Below are positions 6,724 to 17,036 of a DNA stretch of 64,000 nucleotides, piece by piece. The position numbers were made by a program, and so were the translations under genes. A model generated the notes under the pieces. That model had not been told where the DNA came from. It did no database searches and worked only from the letters and a program-made list of their open reading frames with translations. The DNA comes from Pseudomonas sp. M30-35 (GTDB lineage Bacteria; Pseudomonadota; Gammaproteobacteria; Pseudomonadales; Pseudomonadaceae). The first letter of the stretch is position 1, and each line of letters opens with the position of its first letter. The stretch is from NCBI RefSeq assembly GCF_002163625.1, contig NZ_CP020892.1, forward strand, positions 4,216,001-4,280,000. Reading direction: 5' to 3'.

Positions 6724-9036
6724 TTAACGTGGAACGGCAGGCGCCTTGGTTGGCTTCTTGCCTCTACCTTTCTTCGCACTGGCGCGTTCTCTGGCCGCTT
6801 CCTGGTTCTTGGCGAAGGCAGCTGCTTTCGCCTGCTCACGTTTATCCCAAGGTTTGCTGCCGTCGCTGGCACGCGGCGGTAGGCCGGTGTGTTGAGTCAG
6901 CATTGGCTTGCCGACTTTCTTGCTACCGGCTGGCGTCGAATTCTTGCGACGGGCGCTTTGATAGCCGTCAACCGCTGGCTGAAACGCTGGAATCAGCTGA
7001 TTCTTGCCATTGCCGATCAAGTCACTGCGGCCCATACGCTCAAGCGCTTCACGCAGCATTGGCCAGCCGCGTGGGTCGTGGTAACGCAAGAAAGCCTTGT
7101 GCAAACGACGCTGAGCCTCGCTTTTAACGATGCTCACGCCATCACTCTTGTATGTCACCTTGCGCAGCGGGTTTTTACCCGAGTGATACATGGCCGTTGC
7201 CGTCGCCATTGGCGATGGATAGAAGGCCTGAACCTGATCCGCACGGAAGCCATTGGATTTGAGCCAGAGCGCCAGGTTCATCATGTCTTCATCGGTGGTG
7301 CCCGGGTGCGCAGCGATGAAGTAAGGGATCAGGTATTGCTCCTTACCCGCCTCTTTCGAGTACTTCTCGAACATGCGCTTGAACTTGTCGTAGCTGCCGA
7401 TGCCCGGCTTCATCATTTGATTCAGCGGGCCTTCTTCGGTGTGCTCCGGCGCGATCTTCAGGTAACCACCCACATGGTGAGTGACCAACTCCTTGACGTA
7501 CTCCGGCGACTCAACCGCAAGGTCATAACGCAGGCCGGATGCGATCAGGATTTTCTTCACCCCCGGCAATGCACGCGCCGAACGATACAACTGAATCAAC
7601 GATGAGTGATCGGTATTGAGGTTCTCACAAATGCCAGGAAACACGCACGACGGCTTACGGCACGCGGCTTCAATCTCCGGGCTTTTGCAAGCAATGCGGT
7701 ACATATTGGCGGTCGGGCCGCCGAGGTCAGAAATGACCCCGGTGAAGCCTGGCACCTTGTCACGGATCTCTTCGATCTCGCGAATGATCGACTCTTCGGA
7801 ACGGTTCTGGATAATCCGGCCTTCGTGCTCGGTGATCGAACAAAAAGTACAGCCACCAAAGCAGCCACGCATGATGTTCACCGAGAAGCGAATCATCTCG
7901 TAAGCCGGAATTTTCTCTTTACCGTACGCCGGGTGCGGAACACGTGCGTACGGCATACCGAACACGTAATCCATCTCTTCGGTGGTCATTGGGATCGGTG
8001 GTGGATTAAACCAGACATCGACTTCGCCATGACGCTGCACCAGCGCGCGAGCGTTACCCGGATTGGTTTCCAAGTGCAGCACGCGGTTGGCGTGAGCATA
8101 GAGCACGCCATCGCCGCGAACTTTCTCAAATGAAGGCAAGCGAATGACTGTTTTGTCACGTTCAAGACGTGGGTGCGGCAACAGCTGCACGACCTTAGCC
8201 TCGTTCGGATCTTCAACCGGGCCTTTTTCCTGCTCGATGGCGCAGGCCGCAGTATCCTGGGTGTTCACGTACGGGTTGATGATTTTGTCGATCTTGCCCG
8301 GACGGTCGATGCGTGTGGAGTCGATCTCCATCCAGCCTTCAGGCGTGTCACGGCGAATAAACGCGGTACCGCGAATATCACTGATGTCTTCGATCTTTTG
8401 CCCGTAAGACAGGCGCTGGGCGATCTCAACCACTGCACGCTCGGCGTTGCCGTACAGCAGGATATCAGCGCAGGCATCAATCAGGATCGAGTGGCGAACC
8501 TTGTCCTGCCAGTAATCGTAATGGGCGATACGGCGCAAGGAGGCCTCAATACCGCCAAGTACAATCGGCACATGCTTGTAGGCTTCTTTGCAGCGCTGGC
8601 TATAAACCAGGCTGGCACGGTCCGGACGGCTGCCTGCTTGGCCACCTGGGGTGTAGGCGTCGTCCGAACGAATCTTTTTATCCGCGGTGTAGCGGTTGAT
8701 CATCGAATCCATGTTGCCGGCCGCGACGCCGAAGAACAGGTTCGGCTCGCCAAGCTTCATGAAGTCATCTTTCGACTGCCAGTTAGGCTGCGCGATGATG
8801 CCGACACGAAAGCCCTGAGCTTCAAGCAAACGACCAATAATCGCCATGCCAAACGATGGGTGATCAACATAAGCATCGCCAGTGACGATGATGATGTCAC
8901 ACGAATCCCAGCCAAGCTGATCCATCTCCTCCCTGCTCATCGGCAGGAAAGGTGCTGGTCCGAAACATTCGGCCCAGTATTTTGGATAATCGAATAATGG
9001 CTTGACTGCTTGCATGACGTTAACCGAAGGGTTCAT
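6724..9036 (-). CDS. ygiQ: YgiQ-family radical SAM protein (UPF0313)
   Basis: A 770-residue radical S-adenosylmethionine protein of the YgiQ family; the reaction is not established. The radical-SAM iron-sulphur cysteines are in [17 protein letters not shown] around residue 390 (CxxxCxxC). The N-terminal half has the family's DUF3362-associated region with [17 protein letters not shown] and [16 protein letters not shown]. The C-terminus is a basic, lysine- and proline-rich tail ([12 protein letters not shown]) that is probably disordered. It ends at the shared terminator with yegD. The first ATG is used as start; the protein could also begin at the internal methionine eight residues later. Confidence 0.93.
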
Positions 9037-9532
9037 GGATTTTCACGGGCGCGGATAATAGCACAAATTTTAACCAAACCCGACGACTAAGCTCAGGCTT
9101 TAGCTTCATAAATTCGTCTGGAGCGGTATGTCCACGCCCGGCATGCAAGAAAGCTTAGCCAACCCCGATTAGTCTGCACTGCAGCCAGACGAGCGCCGCG
9201 ACAGGACTTTTGTACTGCCCCCACCCAACCAAGCTTGAGTTTGCCCAAGGCACGCAACCATCGGTAACGGATGCTAGGTTGAGCTGCCGCTTCTGCGCCT
9301 CCCTGCTCAGCCTGTGTTACCCGACAAACGGTTGCGCAGAACTTTAGATCACTACCTCGCTCTTGCCAAAAAATCGACACTAGCAACCGTCCTACCCCAA
9401 GCGGCCATGCGTGCGAGCGAAGTGTTCGGGCCAGTAGCATTGCATCGCTCAATCAATAAGACACGCTTGGCCAATCCAGCACTCACAGCACAGCGGGTGC
9501 GGATGAATAAATTGGTCACAGAGGGCTGAGTT
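9037..9532. other. 496 bases without a recognisable gene, upstream of the GH3 operon
   Basis: Must contain the ygiQ promoter (minus strand) and the promoter of the GH3 operon (plus strand). A 119-codon frame on the minus strand (9093-9452) and a 71-codon frame on the plus strand (GTG at 9314 to 9529, ending three bases before the next gene's start) stay open, but neither product shows a domain or compositional pattern I recognise. The region could be a decayed gene, a dispersed non-coding repeat or a leader. I found no confident promoter. Confidence 0.5.
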
Positions 9533-10348
9533 GTGAAAATTCCAAGCGAATGCATCTACAGCAGCTTTATCGCGTTGCAGAATTTAAAAACAACCGATAC
9601 GCAGGCGATGTATGCAATTTATTCTAAGTTTTACCAGAACACCTCACACGCGATCTTTATCAATGACCTTCAGCATAAAACCGGTGCAATTGTTGCCCGC
9701 ACACGCAAAACAAAACGAATAATCGGCTTCTCAACCCTAACCATTTTTGACTGTGACCTGCACGGCAAGAGAATTCGCGGAATCTTTAGCGGCGATACAA
9801 TTGTTGAACCCGAGTACTGGGGCAGTCGCTGTCTGCATGTAGCGTTCTACAAGCAAATTCTCCTCGCTCGGCTACGCCATCCATTCACCCCCCTGTACTG
9901 GTATTTAATATCCAAGGGCTACAAAACCTACCTGCTACTGACACGCAACTTTTACGACTTCTATCCGAACCGGAATAAGCAGGACAACACGTTACGTGAT
10001 GTCGTTAGCGCCTTCAGCACACAACAGTACCCCGATGCATTCGACCCTGAACGCATGCTGCTTGACTTCGGCGTTGGCGCCCCGTGCCTCGAGGACGATA
10101 TTGCCAGAATCACCCCCGAGATTCGCGCCCAAGAACCTGATATTGCCTATTTTGAAGACTGCAATCCCAGCTGGCGAAAAGGCACTGAACTGCCCTGCAC
10201 AGGGGAAATTTCGTTCTCAGCGCTGATCAAGTATTGCTATCACCTTTCGCTAAAAGTGCTCAGGTTAAAACTCAAGGGCCGCGCCACAACCAAAGATCAA
10301 ACACGCCCAAGTATGCTCAAGAGCAGTACTGCTGGCCCCAAAATATGA
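9533..10348 (+). CDS. GNAT-like acyltransferase-fold protein, function unknown
   Basis: A 271-residue protein I do not recognise by name. Residues about 25-140 look like a GNAT N-acyltransferase fold: IIGFSTLTIF (63-72) fits a central beta strand, IRGIFSGDTIV (81-91) the following strand, then a helix (EYWGSRCLHVAFYKQILLA) and PLYWYLISKGYKTYLLL (120-136), which resembles the late strand-helix region of such enzymes. No signal peptide is present. The start is a GTG with GAGGG upstream. Its stop overlaps the start of the GH3 gene (ATGA), so the two are translationally coupled. Several 60-base lines I counted are 42-50% G+C, against 55-63% in lines counted from later operon and core genes, suggesting transfer. 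Confidence 0.55.
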   Translation: MKIPSECIYSSFIALQNLKTTDTQAMYAIYSKFYQNTSHAIFINDLQHKTGAIVARTRKTKRIIGFSTLTIFDCDLHGKRIRGIFSGDTIVEPEYWGSRCLHVAFYKQILLARLRHPFTPLYWYLISKGYKTYLLLTRNFYDFYPNRNKQDNTLRDVVSAFSTQQYPDAFDPERMLLDFGVGAPCLEDDIARITPEIRAQEPDIAYFEDCNPSWRKGTELPCTGEISFSALIKYCYHLSLKVLRLKLKGRATTKDQTRPSMLKSSTAGPKI

Positions 10349-11979
10349 CACGACTCCTCGCGAGCCGATTAGGTCATGGGCTCCTTAAAACGTTTATAAA
10401 ACGCGGCTTGCAGCGCTTCGAGCGTGAGGCGCCTAAACTCGAATCAATCCAACGGGGCATGTTACAAAAGTGGCTGCATAGCTATACCCGTTCATCATCA
10501 GGCAAGCATTCGCCTCTCAAAGCGGACGATGATTGGGAGCAATTCGGCAGCAAGCAGCCTTGCACGACCTACGACAGCTACCGAGATGCGATTGAGCGAC
10601 AGCGCAACCTACAAAGCCTCCACCTATTTGACAGCCCAATTAACCGCTACCAACCCACTAGCGGCTCGACCTCTGCAATAAAGTGGATTCCCTATACGCA
10701 GGCTTTTTTAGGCGAACTTGATCGGGCGATCACCCCCTGGATCGGTGACCTGTACCGGCAATTTCCGAACATTGCGCAAGGCAGCCATTACTGGTCGTTG
10801 TCCTGGATCCCAACCTCATTACGCGATGCTAGCAGCAGCGAACTGAATGACGACATGCAGCTCATGTCGCTCAGTAAACGGCTAATTGCAGGCCTCACCC
10901 AAACAGCGCCCACCTCTATTGCCCTGGCTAAAACAGCGGATGATTCACTGTTCGCGACACTCGCCTATTTAGCCGCTGATGAGCACCTCAGTGTGATCTC
11001 AATCTGGAGCCCTACTTTTGGCCTAGGCCTTCTCGAGCAACTGAGCATCTGCCGTGAAGAGCTTGCAGAGGTTCTTGAACGTGGTAGCTGGGGTGACCGA
11101 ATGGGGGCCATGGGTAGCCTGAACTGCCCTCAATCGCGCAAAACCGCGCAGCGTTTAAAAGCTTGGGATGGCGTCGCTGACCCTGCATTTTTTGCAGCGC
11201 TTTGGCCACACCTTGCACTCCTTAGCGCCTGGGATACCGCGGCGGCGGCGCCCTGGGCTCAGCGCCTTAAAAGAATGCTCGCGCATGCGCAGTTTCAGGG
11301 AAAGGGTTTATGGGCAACCGAGGGCGTGGTTAGCATTCCTGTACAAGGCCATTACCCATTGGCTTATCGCAGCCATGTGTATGAATTTGAAGACCTCGAA
11401 AATGGGCGAATTTTAGCCCCGTGGCAATTGCGCAAGGGGCAGCAGGTCATGCCCTTGCTGACCACCGGCAGCGGGTTTGCACGCTATCGTATGAATGACG
11501 TTTTGGAAGTTAGCCACCACTGGCGAACCTTGCCTTGCTTTACCTTTCTCGGCCGCAATGACGGCACTGATATGGTCGGCGAAAAGATCAGCGCTACGCT
11601 CGCACAAACAATAATTGACAGCCTGACCTACTGCGACTTGCTCCCCATCACTCTACTTGCCCTAAGCGATAGCGGCGCAGGCAAGCCCGGTTATGCCTTA
11701 TTGATTGAAGGTCAGGCAGACGCGACCTCCGTGCCCATCACGACCCTTGCATCCCAGCTTGAGCATGCACTCCTGGATAACTTCCATTACCGCTTAGCGC
11801 GGGATCTTGGCCAGCTTGCACAAGCACGCTGCATCAGTTTGCCTAACATGCGCCAAATCTATCTAGAACAATCTCGCGTGCGCGGAATGCTTGAGGGGAA
11901 CATAAAACTCGAAGCGCTGAGGCACTGGTCCGGCCCACTACCAATAGAACTCCGCCAAGCACTACAGGCAACCCAGTGA
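10345..11979 (+). CDS. GH3-family acyl-adenylating enzyme (acyl acid amido synthetase-like)
   Basis: A 544-residue member of the GH3 family. Plant GH3 enzymes activate acids such as jasmonate or auxin with ATP and join them to amino acids; bacterial members are mostly uncharacterised. The three ATP-binding motifs are visible: TSGSTSAIKWIP (105-116, phosphate loop), WATEGVVSIP (323-332) and YRMNDVLEV (381-389), followed by GRNDGTDMVGEKIS (403-416), which matches the hinge before the C-terminal lid domain. The start is placed at the ATG that overlaps the previous stop (ATGA); an upstream in-frame ATG at 10234 lies inside the previous gene. The end overlaps the next gene by GTGA. Substrate acid and acceptor are unknown. 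Confidence 0.82.
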   Translation: MTRLLASRLGHGLLKTFIKRGLQRFEREAPKLESIQRGMLQKWLHSYTRSSSGKHSPLKADDDWEQFGSKQPCTTYDSYRDAIERQRNLQSLHLFDSPINRYQPTSGSTSAIKWIPYTQAFLGELDRAITPWIGDLYRQFPNIAQGSHYWSLSWIPTSLRDASSSELNDDMQLMSLSKRLIAGLTQTAPTSIALAKTADDSLFATLAYLAADEHLSVISIWSPTFGLGLLEQLSICREELAEVLERGSWGDRMGAMGSLNCPQSRKTAQRLKAWDGVADPAFFAALWPHLALLSAWDTAAAAPWAQRLKRMLAHAQFQGKGLWATEGVVSIPVQGHYPLAYRSHVYEFEDLENGRILAPWQLRKGQQVMPLLTTGSGFARYRMNDVLEVSHHWRTLPCFTFLGRNDGTDMVGEKISATLAQTIIDSLTYCDLLPITLLALSDSGAGKPGYALLIEGQADATSVPITTLASQLEHALLDNFHYRLARDLGQLAQARCISLPNMRQIYLEQSRVRGMLEGNIKLEALRHWSGPLPIELRQALQATQ

Positions 11980-13082
11980 ATAAAGAAATGGAAATTCAAA
12001 CCCGCCTTGCCACTGCCCAAGACAACACCGCCCTTATGGCACTGCTCAAACGCACGCCACAAATGGGCAGTATCACCCTGACATTTGAGCGAGAACCCAA
12101 TTTTTTTGCCGGCGCGCTCGTGAGTTGCGAGCATGAACATGTACTCGTTGCTGAGGACCTGAATACCCCTGGCGTACTCATTGCCATGATTGATATTGGT
12201 CTGCGCCGGCAGTACATCGACGGAAAAATTGAAGCAGTCAGGTACTTTCATGACTTACGCGTTGCCCCTGAAGCGCGTGGAGGAAAGGCTTTAAAGTCGC
12301 TGTTTCTGGCCATTGCCGACCATACCCATGCTCAAGATGAATGGATGGAGGCTGTGGTTTTAGAAGAGAACCTTATTCCACTAGGCATCATTGATCGGGG
12401 TCGATCCTGGCTGCCGAACGTCTATCCAGGTGGACGCGTCATCACCAGTTTAATACCTGCCCAGAAACGAAAAACTGTAATCACCAACAACCTGACAATC
12501 CGCGCAGCAACCCCAGGCGATGCGACTCTGCTACAACAATTGTGGGATGAAGCCAGCCACCGTCAGGGGTTCCCACTTTATAACGTCAATGACCTGCTCG
12601 CCGGCAGTGGCTATTACCGAGGGATAAAGATCAATAGCTACCTGATTGCCTTCATCAACGGTAAAGCCGTTGGCACTGTCGGCATGTGGGATCAGAAACC
12701 TTTCAAGCAAACACGCGTAACCCGTTACACGCCCTGGCTGGCTGCGTCACGCCTACCTTATAACCTGTACAGCATGCTATTCGGCGGTATACACCTGCCG
12801 CCGCCAGGCAGTTGCTTCGACTACTTGACGCTACATAGCCTGACGGTTGATCAAGATAACCCGGAGGTATTTACAGCACTGCTCGATTACGTGATTGAGC
12901 ATCACCTCCCCCCCAAACAAAGTCTTGTCTGTGGGTTCTTTGACAACCACCCTCTGGAAGCCGCGCTTGAGGCATATAAACGCCAAAAGCTGTATAGCCG
13001 CCACCTTCTAATGAGTTACCAACAAGACCCAAGTGAATCGCAGAATTCCACCGTACGTCACGTTGAGATCGCTCGCCTGTGA
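11976..13082 (+). CDS. Tandem-GNAT N-acyltransferase
   Basis: A 368-residue soluble protein with two GNAT-like halves. The first (about residues 5-155) contains RYFHDLRVAPEARGGKALK, which corresponds to the acyl-CoA-binding strand-loop-helix but with the usual RGxGxG/A pattern altered. The second (about 170-350) begins with LTIRAATPGDATLLQQLWDE, a typical GNAT first strand and helix, and includes YLIAFINGKAVGTVGMW. The start is a GTG overlapping the GH3 stop (GTGA); an in-frame ATG four codons later is an alternative. A run of seven C at 12908-12914 lies in the coding sequence. The operon context suggests it acylates the GH3 product or its precursor; this is inference. Confidence 0.7.
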   Translation: MNKEMEIQTRLATAQDNTALMALLKRTPQMGSITLTFEREPNFFAGALVSCEHEHVLVAEDLNTPGVLIAMIDIGLRRQYIDGKIEAVRYFHDLRVAPEARGGKALKSLFLAIADHTHAQDEWMEAVVLEENLIPLGIIDRGRSWLPNVYPGGRVITSLIPAQKRKTVITNNLTIRAATPGDATLLQQLWDEASHRQGFPLYNVNDLLAGSGYYRGIKINSYLIAFINGKAVGTVGMWDQKPFKQTRVTRYTPWLAASRLPYNLYSMLFGGIHLPPPGSCFDYLTLHSLTVDQDNPEVFTALLDYVIEHHLPPKQSLVCGFFDNHPLEAALEAYKRQKLYSRHLLMSYQQDPSESQNSTVRHVEIARL

Positions 13083-14179
13083 ACGTCAGCCTGAGTGAGC
13101 CACCTGCTGATTCATCAATGTTTACAGAGGTGTCCCCTGACGCCTATCAAATGAATCGCAAGACGCAGACGCGACTTGCCGTATTTGCCAGTTTTTTAGC
13201 GCTGGTAGCAGTAGCCTATGCGAGCTACTGGCTGCTTCATTTGCGTTTTATCGAAAGCACAGACAATGCCTACGTACGAGCCGATACCGTAATTATTTCT
13301 AGCCAGCTCGCCGGACGCATAGATCAAGTCCGTGTCAATGACAACCAGTGGGTTGAGGCAGGGGAGACCCTTGCACACATTGAAGATGCAGACTTCAAAT
13401 TCAATGTTGTGCGCAGCGAAACACAGATTGCAAATCTTGGCGTACAGCTAGATGACTTAAGCAATCAGGGTGATCAGCAACTCGCCAGCATTGAAGCGCA
13501 ACAAGCGGCAATTCGTGCCAGTCAAGCAGAGTTAAAGCGCCATCAGCAAAACCTGGAGCGTATCCGTAAAATGCGCACCAATGGGTTTGCATCTGAGCAA
13601 GCCCTCTCCTCCTTATCGGCCAATGTAGCCGTGGCGCAAGCCAGGCTTGATCAAGCCAAATCAGCACTTAAAGGCCAGAAAATAGCCTTAGCGCAGCTCG
13701 ACAACCGCCGCCAACAACTAAAAACACAAATCACGGGCCGCAAAAACGAACTGCACTTGGCCGAGCTCAACCTATCCCGCACAACGCTCACCGCTCCTGT
13801 TGCAGGCAGAGTTGGCAATCGCTCACTTAACCTGGGGGAATATGTGCGCCCTGGTGAAGCATTGCTATCCCTGGTGCCGCAAACCAAGTGGATACAGGCA
13901 AACTTTAAAGAAACCCAAATTGACTCAATGCGTAAAGGCTACAAAGCTCAGCTACGCTTCGATGCCCTACCCAACCTGGTTATTGAAGGTGTCATCGATA
14001 GTCTGCAACCCGCTACAGGATCTCAATTCAGCCTGCTACCGCCGGACAATGCCACAGGCAACTTCACTAAAGTGATCCAGCGGGTCCCCGTAAAAATCCT
14101 GCTTCCAGAAGATTTTACCGAGCTGGAACAAATACGCCCCGGCCTCTCAGTAGAGGTGGCTGTTGATCGACGCCAATAG
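13079..14179 (+). CDS. EmrA/HlyD-type membrane fusion protein of an efflux pump
   Basis: A 366-residue periplasmic adaptor of the HlyD/EmrA family, linking an inner-membrane exporter to an outer-membrane channel. A single membrane segment lies at about residues 30-50, followed by the hallmark FIESTDNAYVRADTV and SQLAGRIDQVRVNDNQWV (lipoyl half-motif), a long alanine- and glutamine-rich coiled coil (about 95-215), the second lipoyl half TTLTAPVAGRVGNRSLNLG and a beta-barrel domain. The start is a GTG in a GTGA overlap with the previous stop; the ATG 13 codons later is possible. No TolC-like gene is present nearby, so it would use a channel encoded elsewhere. Confidence 0.9.
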   Translation: MNVSLSEPPADSSMFTEVSPDAYQMNRKTQTRLAVFASFLALVAVAYASYWLLHLRFIESTDNAYVRADTVIISSQLAGRIDQVRVNDNQWVEAGETLAHIEDADFKFNVVRSETQIANLGVQLDDLSNQGDQQLASIEAQQAAIRASQAELKRHQQNLERIRKMRTNGFASEQALSSLSANVAVAQARLDQAKSALKGQKIALAQLDNRRQQLKTQITGRKNELHLAELNLSRTTLTAPVAGRVGNRSLNLGEYVRPGEALLSLVPQTKWIQANFKETQIDSMRKGYKAQLRFDALPNLVIEGVIDSLQPATGSQFSLLPPDNATGNFTKVIQRVPVKILLPEDFTELEQIRPGLSVEVAVDRRQ

Positions 14180-15716
14180 CACCTCAGCATCCTTGCAAGA
14201 ACCTAGCTTCCGCGACTGGATAGCCGTGCTCAGCACCATGTTGGGCGCGTTTATGGCGGTTATCGACATCCTGATCACCAACGCCTCACTGAAAGAAATT
14301 CAATCCGCTTTAGGTGCAACCATCGCCGAAGGATCATGGATATCAACGGCCTACCTGGTTGCAGAAATCATCATCATTCCCCTCACCGTATGGCTCGGTG
14401 ATCTATTGGGTAAACGCCGTTTAACAATATGGCTGACAGTTGGTTTTATTGGCTCTTCCCTGCTGTGCTCTCTCGCTTGGTCGCTCAACAGCATGATTGT
14501 CTTTCGTGCATTCCAGGGTCTGTGTGGCGGGGCCTTTATTCCACTGGCGTTCAGCATGGTACTTACCCATTTGCCTGCACATCGGCGCCCAACCGGCATG
14601 GCTCTGTTTGCCGTAACTGCAACATTTGCCCCCGCAATAGGCCCTACCATTGGCGGCTGGCTGACTGAGACTCTAGGCTGGCAGTACTTGTTCTATATCA
14701 ACATTCCGCCTGGAATGCTGATGATCACGGGCTTGATGTACGGCCTTAAAAAACAACCCATCAATTGGAAACTTCTGGGTCAAGCAGACTACGCAGGCAT
14801 ATGCACCATGGCGGTTGGTTTAGCAGCGCTGCAGATATTTCTGGAGGAAGGTTATCGCAGCGACTGGTTCAGCTCACGCATGATCGTAGTCCTAGCGATT
14901 GTTGCGTTTATCAGCCTCGGCGCATTTATTATTATTCAGCTGTCTCGCGACAACCCGTTACTCAATTTACGCATATTGAAAAACCGTAATTTTTTCCTGA
15001 GCTGTATTGCCACCGTTGGCCTGGGCATCGGACTGTACGGTTCAATCTATGCGTTACCGCTGTATATGTCGCAAATTCAGGGCAACAATCCACTGCAGAT
15101 TGGCCGGTTAATCATGTGGATGGGCCTTCCACAACTGGCGATAATTCCTTGCGTCCCCCTGCTCATGCGCGTTATTGACCCGCGCATACTCTGCGCCATT
15201 GGTTTTATGCTGTTTGGCTATGCAAGTTTTCTTAGTGGCTCGCTAAACCCAGATATGGGCGGTGAGCAATTGCTGCATATTCAGCTAATTCGCGCCGTTG
15301 GCCAGCCATTAATCCTGATCACCTCATCCCTGATTGCAACCAGCTATATCGAGCCCAAAGATGCTGGCGCAGCATCAGCGTTGTTCAACATCATCCGAAA
15401 TCTCACTGGCGCCATTTTCATTGCACTGCTGGTGACCATGCTGCAAAACGATACCAGCCGCAATTATGAGTATTTACGTGAGTCATTCAGTAGCCCTAAC
15501 CCGCAAGCACTCAGCCGCTTGCAATGGCTGACTGACAGGCTGGGTAGCGCTGACCGGGCTCTGGCAATAGTCGTCGAGCAAACCCGCGAGCAGGCCTCTA
15601 TCCTGGCTTACAACGAAGCATTCCACATCATGGGCGTTGCCCTGGTAATCAGTGTGCTTGCGATGTTTTTTACCCGCAGGCTTCCGACAGGATTGAAAGC
15701 CGGCGGAGCGCATTAA
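14163..15716 (+). CDS. EmrB/QacA-type major facilitator exporter (DHA2)
   Basis: A 517-residue proton-driven drug exporter of the DHA2 family with 14 predicted membrane helices. It shows the family's motif C pattern around FAVTATFAPAIGPTIGGWL, the motif A-like WLGDLLGKRRL and the early MLGAFMAVIDILITNASL. It pairs with the EmrA-like gene, overlapping it by 17 bases. The best start is a TTG at 14163 with AGAGGTGG just upstream; later GTG and ATG codons fall at the first helix and would truncate it. As the last gene of the operon it most likely exports the product of the GH3 and GNAT enzymes, or a toxic acid after conjugation. No clear terminator separates it from the convergent alr. Confidence 0.92.
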   Translation: MIDANSTSASLQEPSFRDWIAVLSTMLGAFMAVIDILITNASLKEIQSALGATIAEGSWISTAYLVAEIIIIPLTVWLGDLLGKRRLTIWLTVGFIGSSLLCSLAWSLNSMIVFRAFQGLCGGAFIPLAFSMVLTHLPAHRRPTGMALFAVTATFAPAIGPTIGGWLTETLGWQYLFYINIPPGMLMITGLMYGLKKQPINWKLLGQADYAGICTMAVGLAALQIFLEEGYRSDWFSSRMIVVLAIVAFISLGAFIIIQLSRDNPLLNLRILKNRNFFLSCIATVGLGIGLYGSIYALPLYMSQIQGNNPLQIGRLIMWMGLPQLAIIPCVPLLMRVIDPRILCAIGFMLFGYASFLSGSLNPDMGGEQLLHIQLIRAVGQPLILITSSLIATSYIEPKDAGAASALFNIIRNLTGAIFIALLVTMLQNDTSRNYEYLRESFSSPNPQALSRLQWLTDRLGSADRALAIVVEQTREQASILAYNEAFHIMGVALVISVLAMFFTRRLPTGLKAGGAH

Positions 15717-15814
15717 ACTCAATACGGGCCAGCACCCTTTCAAGCGACCTTACGCTGGCAAGCCCAAATTAGCCGGGGGCGAAACCCACTGTCCATGCCT
15801 TAACGCAGCCGCTA

Positions 15815-16894
15815 TTAGTCATTCAGGTAGCGTCGCGGCACCCGCGCCGTGACTTTGGTCAACAGCTCATAACCAATGGTGCCCGCACCCTGAGCCACTT
15901 CATCGACGGGCAACTGCTTACCCCACAACTCCACCGAGTCGCCAATAGCAGGTGCGGTTAAATCAGTCAGATCGACCGTCAACATATCCATCGAAACCCG
16001 GCCGATCAGGGGTACACGCTGGCCATTGACGACTGCCTCTGTGCCCGGCGGAGCATGCCGAGGATAACCGTCGGCATAACCGCAACTCACGGTACCTATT
16101 ACCGAGTCTCGCGAGGCTATCCAGCTGGCGCCGTATCCAACCGACTCGCCCTTGGCGACCCGCCGCACGGCAATCAGCTGCGCGGTCAGAGTCATCACCG
16201 GCTCAAGCCCAAGTTCGGCGACGCTTAAATCCGCAAAGGGTGTGGCGCCATAGAGCATGATGCCGGGACGCAGCCAATCCATGTGCGCAGCAGGGATAGT
16301 CAGAATCGCCGCAGAATTGGCCAGCGAACGTTGATTGAAATCCAGATCAAGCACATCAAGGAAGCACTCAAGCTGACGCTCCGTCAGCTCATGGCCACGC
16401 TCATCTGCGCAGGCAAAGTGGCTCATCAGGTTTAGCTCATTGCAGTGGCGACTGTCACGCAAAGCCTGGTGCGCCGCACGCAGCTCAGTGCTATCAAAAC
16501 CCAGACGATGCATGCCGCTGTCGAGCTTTAGCCATATGTTCAGCGATTGCCCTTCAGGAGCGCCAAGCACGGCAGCCAATTGCTGGTTGTTTTGCACCGC
16601 GATGTCCAGCCGCAATTGTTGCGCCAGTTGCACCTCGACGGTTTCAAAACAGCCTTCGAGCAGCAGTATTCGTGCCTGCCCGTGCATGGCGCGTACCTGT
16701 GCGGCCTCTTCCAGGCTGGCAACTGCAAACCCGTCGGCAATGTCATGCAACGCCGTAACCACCTCACGCACCCCGTGGCCATAGGCATTGGCCTTGACCA
16801 CGGCAAATGCCTCACGCCCCGGCGCGCAGCGCTTGGCGACAGCGTAGTTATGGCAAACGGCATTCAAATCGATGGTGGCAACAAGCGGGCGCAT
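15815..16894 (-). CDS. alr: Alanine racemase
   Basis: A 359-residue pyridoxal-phosphate enzyme making D-alanine for peptidoglycan. The PLP lysine is in AFAVVKANAYGHG near residue 33, the catalytic tyrosine in the SVGYGASW segment, and SRVSMDMLTVDLT-type sequence (RVSMDMLTVDL) follows. The start at 16894 (MRPLVATIDLNA) is chosen because it matches the family length and GGAG lies seven bases upstream; the open frame extends 11 codons further without support. It lies between the GH3 operon and the VOC gene, whereas in P. aeruginosa, from memory, a sensor-type gene separates it from ygiQ. Confidence 0.96.
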   Translation of the reverse strand: MRPLVATIDLNAVCHNYAVAKRCAPGREAFAVVKANAYGHGVREVVTALHDIADGFAVASLEEAAQVRAMHGQARILLLEGCFETVEVQLAQQLRLDIAVQNNQQLAAVLGAPEGQSLNIWLKLDSGMHRLGFDSTELRAAHQALRDSRHCNELNLMSHFACADERGHELTERQLECFLDVLDLDFNQRSLANSAAILTIPAAHMDWLRPGIMLYGATPFADLSVAELGLEPVMTLTAQLIAVRRVAKGESVGYGASWIASRDSVIGTVSCGYADGYPRHAPPGTEAVVNGQRVPLIGRVSMDMLTVDLTDLTAPAIGDSVELWGKQLPVDEVAQGAGTIGYELLTKVTARVPRRYLND

Positions 16895-17036
16895 GGCAAA
16901 GCTCCACAGCAGATGAAAGCCGAGCATCTTAAACCTCAGTCCTCAACCTGCAAGCACTAGGTAATCAGCCCACTTGTACGGATCCACAAGACACTCAATA
17001 GTTGGCGAATTAAATTTTATCGCTCAACGCTGACAA

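Follow-up and report, generated by a model that had tools for sequence, protein, structure and literature searches.

The nearest described system to the one reported here is the OlsH/OlsI system of Singulisphaera acidiphila, in which, according to the available text of its description (PMC12493201), a bacterial GH3-like enzyme serves in an acyl-amide pathway and has an alpha/beta-hydrolase O-acyltransferase as its partner. The GH3 gene considered here lies in Pseudomonas sp. M30-35 (contig NZ_CP020892.1, positions 4,216,001 to 4,280,000, a stretch of 64,000 nucleotides referred to below as the window). It stands in a five-gene operon at window positions 9533 to 15716, between genes for two acyltransferase-like proteins, termed g1 and g3, and is followed by an EmrA-like and an EmrB-like gene. 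The three nucleotide-binding motifs are recognizable in both OlsH and the window's GH3. The partners differ, being in the window a single GNAT, a double GNAT and a pump, and none of the five operon proteins gave a match to any hydrolase family, such as that of OlsI, at E values up to 1.

Other relatives share single components with the operon. Similarity to the plant GH3 acyl acid amido synthetases (AtGH3.15, PDB 6avh) is nearly full length at the profile level (E 8e-32 with A4) and includes the conserved motifs, but we know of no plant GH3 enzyme in an operon with acyltransferases and exporters. The eukaryotic N-myristoyltransferase (NMT) has a double-GNAT fold like that predicted along the length of g3, although the two are only 9 to 12% identical, and the bacterial tandem GNATs MAB_4324, MshD and PamZ likewise have two GNAT domains per chain. 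By Foldseek, MAB_4324 was the best match of g3 (E 4.9e-13), with MshD scoring close to NMT. As in Escherichia coli EmrAB, a permease that passes the EmrB subfamily model adjoins an EmrA-like adaptor; unlike it, the pair in the window is joined by overlaps to a biosynthetic-looking core. Literature searches, which left subscription journals largely outside, returned no description of the g1-GH3-g3 triad or of the five-gene composition. GH3-based amide biosynthesis is already known; what appears to be new is the composition of the triad.

To find relatives of the operon, GH3 was sought in 84,980 species genomes, and the best 80 of 101 confirmed stretches were retained, a choice that weights the sample toward close relatives. 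Loci were read by codon-usage gene calling and tblastn, as calling of the longest open reading frames (ORFs) gave shadow ORFs in G+C-rich loci. g1 immediately preceded GH3 in 78 of the 80 loci, g3 immediately followed it in the same orientation in 76, and both genes flanked it in 75. The exceptions comprise two loci cut by contig ends (L057 and L021), one with g1 4.5 kb upstream of GH3 and no g3 (L081), one with a divergent g3-like gene of 422 amino acids (L071) and one with g3 on the opposite strand (L082). A reading made from the window's letters and ORFs alone (the sequence-only reading) had tied GH3 to two acyltransferase-like proteins, and the relatives bear this out.

A second sample, independent of the choice of the best 80 loci, was an even set of 369 Gammaproteobacteria genomes, including that of the window. 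At E values up to 1e-5, g1 was found in 9, g3 in 8 and GH3 in 16. The nine genomes with GH3 matches below 1e-40 were the same nine that carried g1, and the seven with weaker matches (1.4e-18 to 5.3e-8) had no g1 or g3 match, the line between strong and weak having been set after the hits were seen. With all GH3 genomes counted, all eight other g1 genomes fell among the 15 other GH3 genomes of 368 (hypergeometric probability, 8e-13). g1 adjoined GH3 in six of these eight, and in G204 both were at contig ends. g3 followed GH3 directly in four, was two genes away in two and was on the opposite strand in G247; in G038 it was not found, the contig stopping shortly after GH3. In both samples, then, the three genes were not scattered among unrelated partners in most genomes. 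The co-occurrence that the sequence-only reading had proposed to look for holds for these three and not for the pump pair.

Among 398 Pseudomonas genomes, the GH3 type of the window was found in 3, a second type in 9 and weak matches only in 6. All 11 other genomes with strong matches have g1, and no g1 was found in the one weak-match genome searched. In the nine second-type genomes g1 is approximately 4 kb from GH3; direct adjacency is therefore a feature of the window's type. Tree distances of g1, GH3 and g3 correlate at 0.88 to 0.92, which shows joint inheritance and not interaction, because shared descent contributes. The g1-GH3-g3 triad is thus a conserved core, with pump and tailoring enzymes modular. 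Many carriers of the triad belong to Alcanivorax, Marinobacter, Oleispira, Thalassolituus and Bermanella, which are genera of hydrocarbon degraders.

The EmrB-like protein passed TIGR00711 (393.3 versus 230.2 bits) and the EmrA-like protein fell below the cutoff of TIGR00998 for EmrA/EmrK (258.5 versus 390.8 bits), so that of the complete EmrA/EmrB pair first proposed only the EmrB half is upheld by its family model. Pumps were surveyed across the 80 loci by tblastn with representative pumps, on the same strand and up to 4 kb downstream of the core, a search that other pump types would escape. In 55 loci one of four pump types was present: a resistance-nodulation-division (RND) adaptor and pump in 37 (a PapA-like gene accompanies 24 of these, both a PapA-like gene and one of approximately 440 amino acids accompany 7, and neither accompanies 6), an ATP-binding cassette (ABC) system in 15, EmrAB in 2 and MMPL in 1; L014, L045 and L057 were scored from systems cut by contig ends, and a contig end intervened in 3 further loci. 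Among the neighborhoods read, EmrAB followed the core only in four Pseudomonas genomes, all with the same five-gene order: the window's own; P. segetis (L004), in which GH3 is 82% identical and the overlaps measure 4, 4, 4 and 17 bases; P. benzenivorans (L005, the same as G668); and genome G493. Elsewhere the pump was RND, ABC or MMPL, or none was nearby. That the five genes form one fixed unit, as had been supposed, was rejected by this exchange of pumps; the make-and-export logic gained from it, as the presence of one or another pump type in 55 loci suggests selection for export.

The PapA-like gene of L034 (L034:12720-13676; 318 amino acids), which comes after the triad and before the RND pump, matches only part of PapA_C and was just below the Pfam cutoff (28.4 versus 30 bits). 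It has equivalents in other Alcanivorax-type loci and may encode a shortened condensation-type acyltransferase. A Pfam scan of the PapA-like relatives in L066 and L082 and of the 440-amino-acid gene of L066 gave no match. Whether or not a pump is present, many loci of Aquabacterium type have a gene of approximately 460 amino acids nearby on the other strand; of three scanned, that of L041 was above the condensation and PapA_C cutoffs and those of L013 and L022 were weakly similar.

The GH3 protein matched the Pfam GH3 domain PF03321 with 111.4 bits against a gathering score of 23.6 (E 6.4e-32); GH3_M was above its cutoff (3e-11) and GH3_C below. The key residues of the three nucleotide-binding motifs were invariant or nearly so across 17 sequences and the motifs align to plant GH3 chains, so this check of the motifs, also proposed beforehand, came out in favor of their being intact. 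Family and motifs together suggest an amide synthetase that would activate an acid and form an amide.

The case for g3 as a GNAT-type enzyme draws mainly on its predicted structure, which holds two GNAT domains. Pfam GNAT models matched it below cutoff only, and at E values up to 10 no more than 13 of 36 g3 members gave a match to them (best, 1.3e-5); a g3 profile gave weak matches to PDB sequences, mostly GNATs. The earlier label of a double GNAT, applied to g1 and g3 as a pair, fits g3 by itself. The g3 model aligns along the whole chain with the double-GNAT fold of NMT, and in 49 of 50 structure-alignment rows the aligned range reaches its last residue, 368. Arg-Leu-stop is kept at the end of g3 in 75 of 76 sequences, and this conserved end aligns with residue 496, the C-terminal residue of human NMT1. 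The accessible part of a survey of such folds (PMC12219266) gives a C terminus that enters the active site as a criterion of NMT. These features suggest that g3 may act in the manner of NMT. Homologs recovered with g3 as the sole query numbered 14, probably because the tool requires shared words, and this figure is no measure of family size.

For g1, the GNAT-type assignment comes from the predicted structure, in which the GNAT fold is present, because GNAT sequence models match g1 below cutoff only and match few of its relatives: PF13527 scored 14.1 bits on g1 against a gathering score of 25, and at E values up to 10 such models matched at most 3 of 38 members (best, 0.0042). The TLDc model matched 7 of the 38 (best E, 0.0035), and a g1 profile gave chance-level matches only to PDB sequences. 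A search with second-type g1 returned 771 proteins; among the 120 matches listed, those named by their source were mostly called "hypothetical protein." That g1 or g3 is a common housekeeping GNAT was rejected from their rarity among the 369 genomes of the class. One in-frame TGA was reported inside a g1 match at G234:C31:1904-2623.

On balance, the probable role of the operon is to synthesize a small acylated amide and export it. GH3 and ATP would convert an organic or fatty acid to an acyl-adenylate and join it to an amine. g1, judged by its fold, might acylate an amine, with a coenzyme A (CoA) thioester as the most likely donor. g3 could add a further, probably long, acyl group: its N-terminal GNAT domain would bind acyl-CoA and its C-terminal domain the acceptor, for which a small amine is more probable than a protein. 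The base would be the carboxylate left free on the conserved last residue of the g3 chain. Export of the product would fall to EmrAB together with an outer-membrane channel whose gene lies elsewhere, a step that pump replacement in relatives supports.

The companion genes of distant clusters bear on this pathway. The core is accompanied in L081 by a Rieske oxygenase, a fatty acid desaturase, a P450 and a condensation-domain gene, and in L116 by Rieske, desaturase and P450 genes and a gene for an RnfD-FG-GAP-UnbV fusion. A pair of B12-binding radical-SAM genes lies between GH3 and g3 in L118 (5278-8027, scanned); by resemblance a like pair is present in L120 (10905-13734), and L119 has the first of the pair (7703-8983) before its contig ends. 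The separate g1 cluster of G338 includes an AurF-like N-oxygenase gene (L121:11629-12606; E 1.9e-6, just below cutoff). In Pseudomonas loci L157 to L161 and L163 the order is g1-g3, a metal-dependent hydrolase (scanned in L163), a fatty acid desaturase, GH3 and Rieske. Known families of desaturase, Rieske, P450 and radical-SAM-type enzymes modify acyl or aliphatic chains, and companions of this kind favor biosynthesis.

They also make detoxification, which the sequence-only reading had offered as its alternative, less likely. Under that explanation EmrAB would expel a conjugate that GH3 and the acyltransferases had formed from a harmful acid or amine. In its favor, the subfamily of EmrB is one of multidrug-type pumps, small molecules can be inactivated by enzymes of the GH3 and GNAT kinds, and the GH3 type of the window is thinly scattered through Pseudomonas (3 of 398). 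Three acyl-transfer enzymes nevertheless seem beyond the needs of detoxification, and with the tailoring genes of related clusters, AurF-like included, we regard it as improbable. We are equally skeptical of the synthesis of a membrane aminolipid, in which the triad would make an ornithine-lipid-like molecule that the pump moves toward the outer membrane. Related triads do have PapA-like or condensation-type genes beside them, as well as RND or MMPL pumps, and GH3-like OlsH makes N-acyl ornithine in planctomycetes, although in the available text of that work (PMC12493201) the OlsH/OlsI pathway has no role for two GNAT proteins, the operon has no OlsI-type hydrolase and the triad is patchily distributed for the source of a structural lipid. 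Less probable still is an intracellular product, with EmrAB an unrelated pump that shares the transcript: EmrA is below its family cutoff and some loci lack a nearby pump of the types sought, but pumps of four types replace one another on the same strand downstream of the core.

Several observations weigh against the make-and-export pathway itself. The 80 loci were picked as the best GH3 matches and are hence not independent; none of the sought pump types was found within 4 kb downstream in 19 of them, and in 3 a PapA-like gene was accompanied by RND on the other strand only. In Pseudomonas and Marinobacter loci the core is not followed directly by a PapA-like gene. g1 and GH3 are in separate clusters on different contigs in G338, and in the second-type Pseudomonas clusters g1-g3 is set apart from GH3. 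For g3, the Pfam NMT family matched none of 36 members at E values up to 10 (HMMER filters active), the top Foldseek match was another tandem GNAT (7q3a), and NMTs, MshD and a glucosamine acetyltransferase were similar in E value and TM-score. The divergent g3-like protein of L071, outside the 76 compared, ends in Leu-Met.

The five ORFs, all on the plus strand, were confirmed with their starts and with the overlaps first described (Table 1): ATGA between g1 and GH3, GTGA between GH3 and g3 and between g3 and the EmrA-like gene, and 17 bases between the pump genes. No Rfam family reached its gathering score in 8900-16000. Promoter and terminator scans returned no more signals than shuffled sequences, and therefore no promoter is claimed.

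Table 1. Operon genes and flanking genes in window coordinates; the names of the flanking genes are our assumption
Feature	Position	Strand	Remarks
g1, predicted single-domain GNAT-type acyltransferase, 271 aa	9533..10348	+	insertion after fourth helix, C-terminal helix
GH3-type adenylate-forming amide synthetase (predicted), 544 aa	10345..11979	+	nucleotide-binding motifs intact
g3, predicted double-GNAT N-acyltransferase, N-myristoyltransferase-like architecture, 368 aa	11976..13082	+	ends in conserved Arg-Leu
EmrA-like periplasmic adaptor (membrane fusion protein)	13079..14179	+	
EmrB-like DHA2 major facilitator superfamily efflux permease	14163..15716	+	
Left flank, presumed YgiQ-type radical SAM gene	6724..9036	-	
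Right flank, presumed alanine racemase gene (alr)	15815..16927	-	

The G+C content of the operon, 0.518, equals the minimum of the window to three decimals (6.2-kb stretches every 500 bases; mean, 0.549; standard deviation, 0.011), and third-position G+C is 0.51 to 0.58 in the operon genes versus 0.64 to 0.68 in four neighbors. In genome G014, which has no GH3 match, the flanking genes are approximately 0.15 kb apart (L179); in the other three of four close relatives the left flanking gene was not within the 1.5 kb examined. The operon was likely gained at this site, the alternative being loss in G014. No close GH3 relatives were found in the viral contigs searched and no relatives of the operon DNA in the plasmids searched.

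Two further features were seen beside second-type triads. An approximately 900-amino-acid membrane protein follows the triad at L116:5315-8074, L117:7017-9728 and L115:12768-15503; the L116 copy, the one scanned of the three, combines an NQR2/RnfD-like domain, FG-GAP repeats and ASPIC/UnbV. UnbU/UnbV-like proteins occur in enediyne clusters. At L163:1904-3364, PAP2-like (just below cutoff) and fatty acid desaturase domains are joined in one protein. In the window's own genome, condensation domains were found only at 2.46 to 2.49 Mb (12 matches, G000:C1:2459538-2490314, in frames of up to 4,652 amino acids), probably a nonribosomal peptide synthetase (NRPS) cluster.

We tentatively suggest, as a possibility short of an even chance, that the triad is the core of undescribed, widespread lipo-amide pathways independent of NRPS and polyketide synthase (PKS), in which a GH3 ligase works with a bacterial NMT-type enzyme whose own C-terminal carboxylate serves as the catalytic base and into which exporters and tailoring enzymes plug as modules. 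If so, a small core would link a bacterial GH3 subfamily to a common chemistry, and exported acyl amides would arise without NRPS or PKS machinery. A structure search has found NMT-type structures in bacteria, according to the accessible part of its report (PMC12219266), and g3 would set a bacterial NMT-type enzyme into a pathway where its function can be probed.

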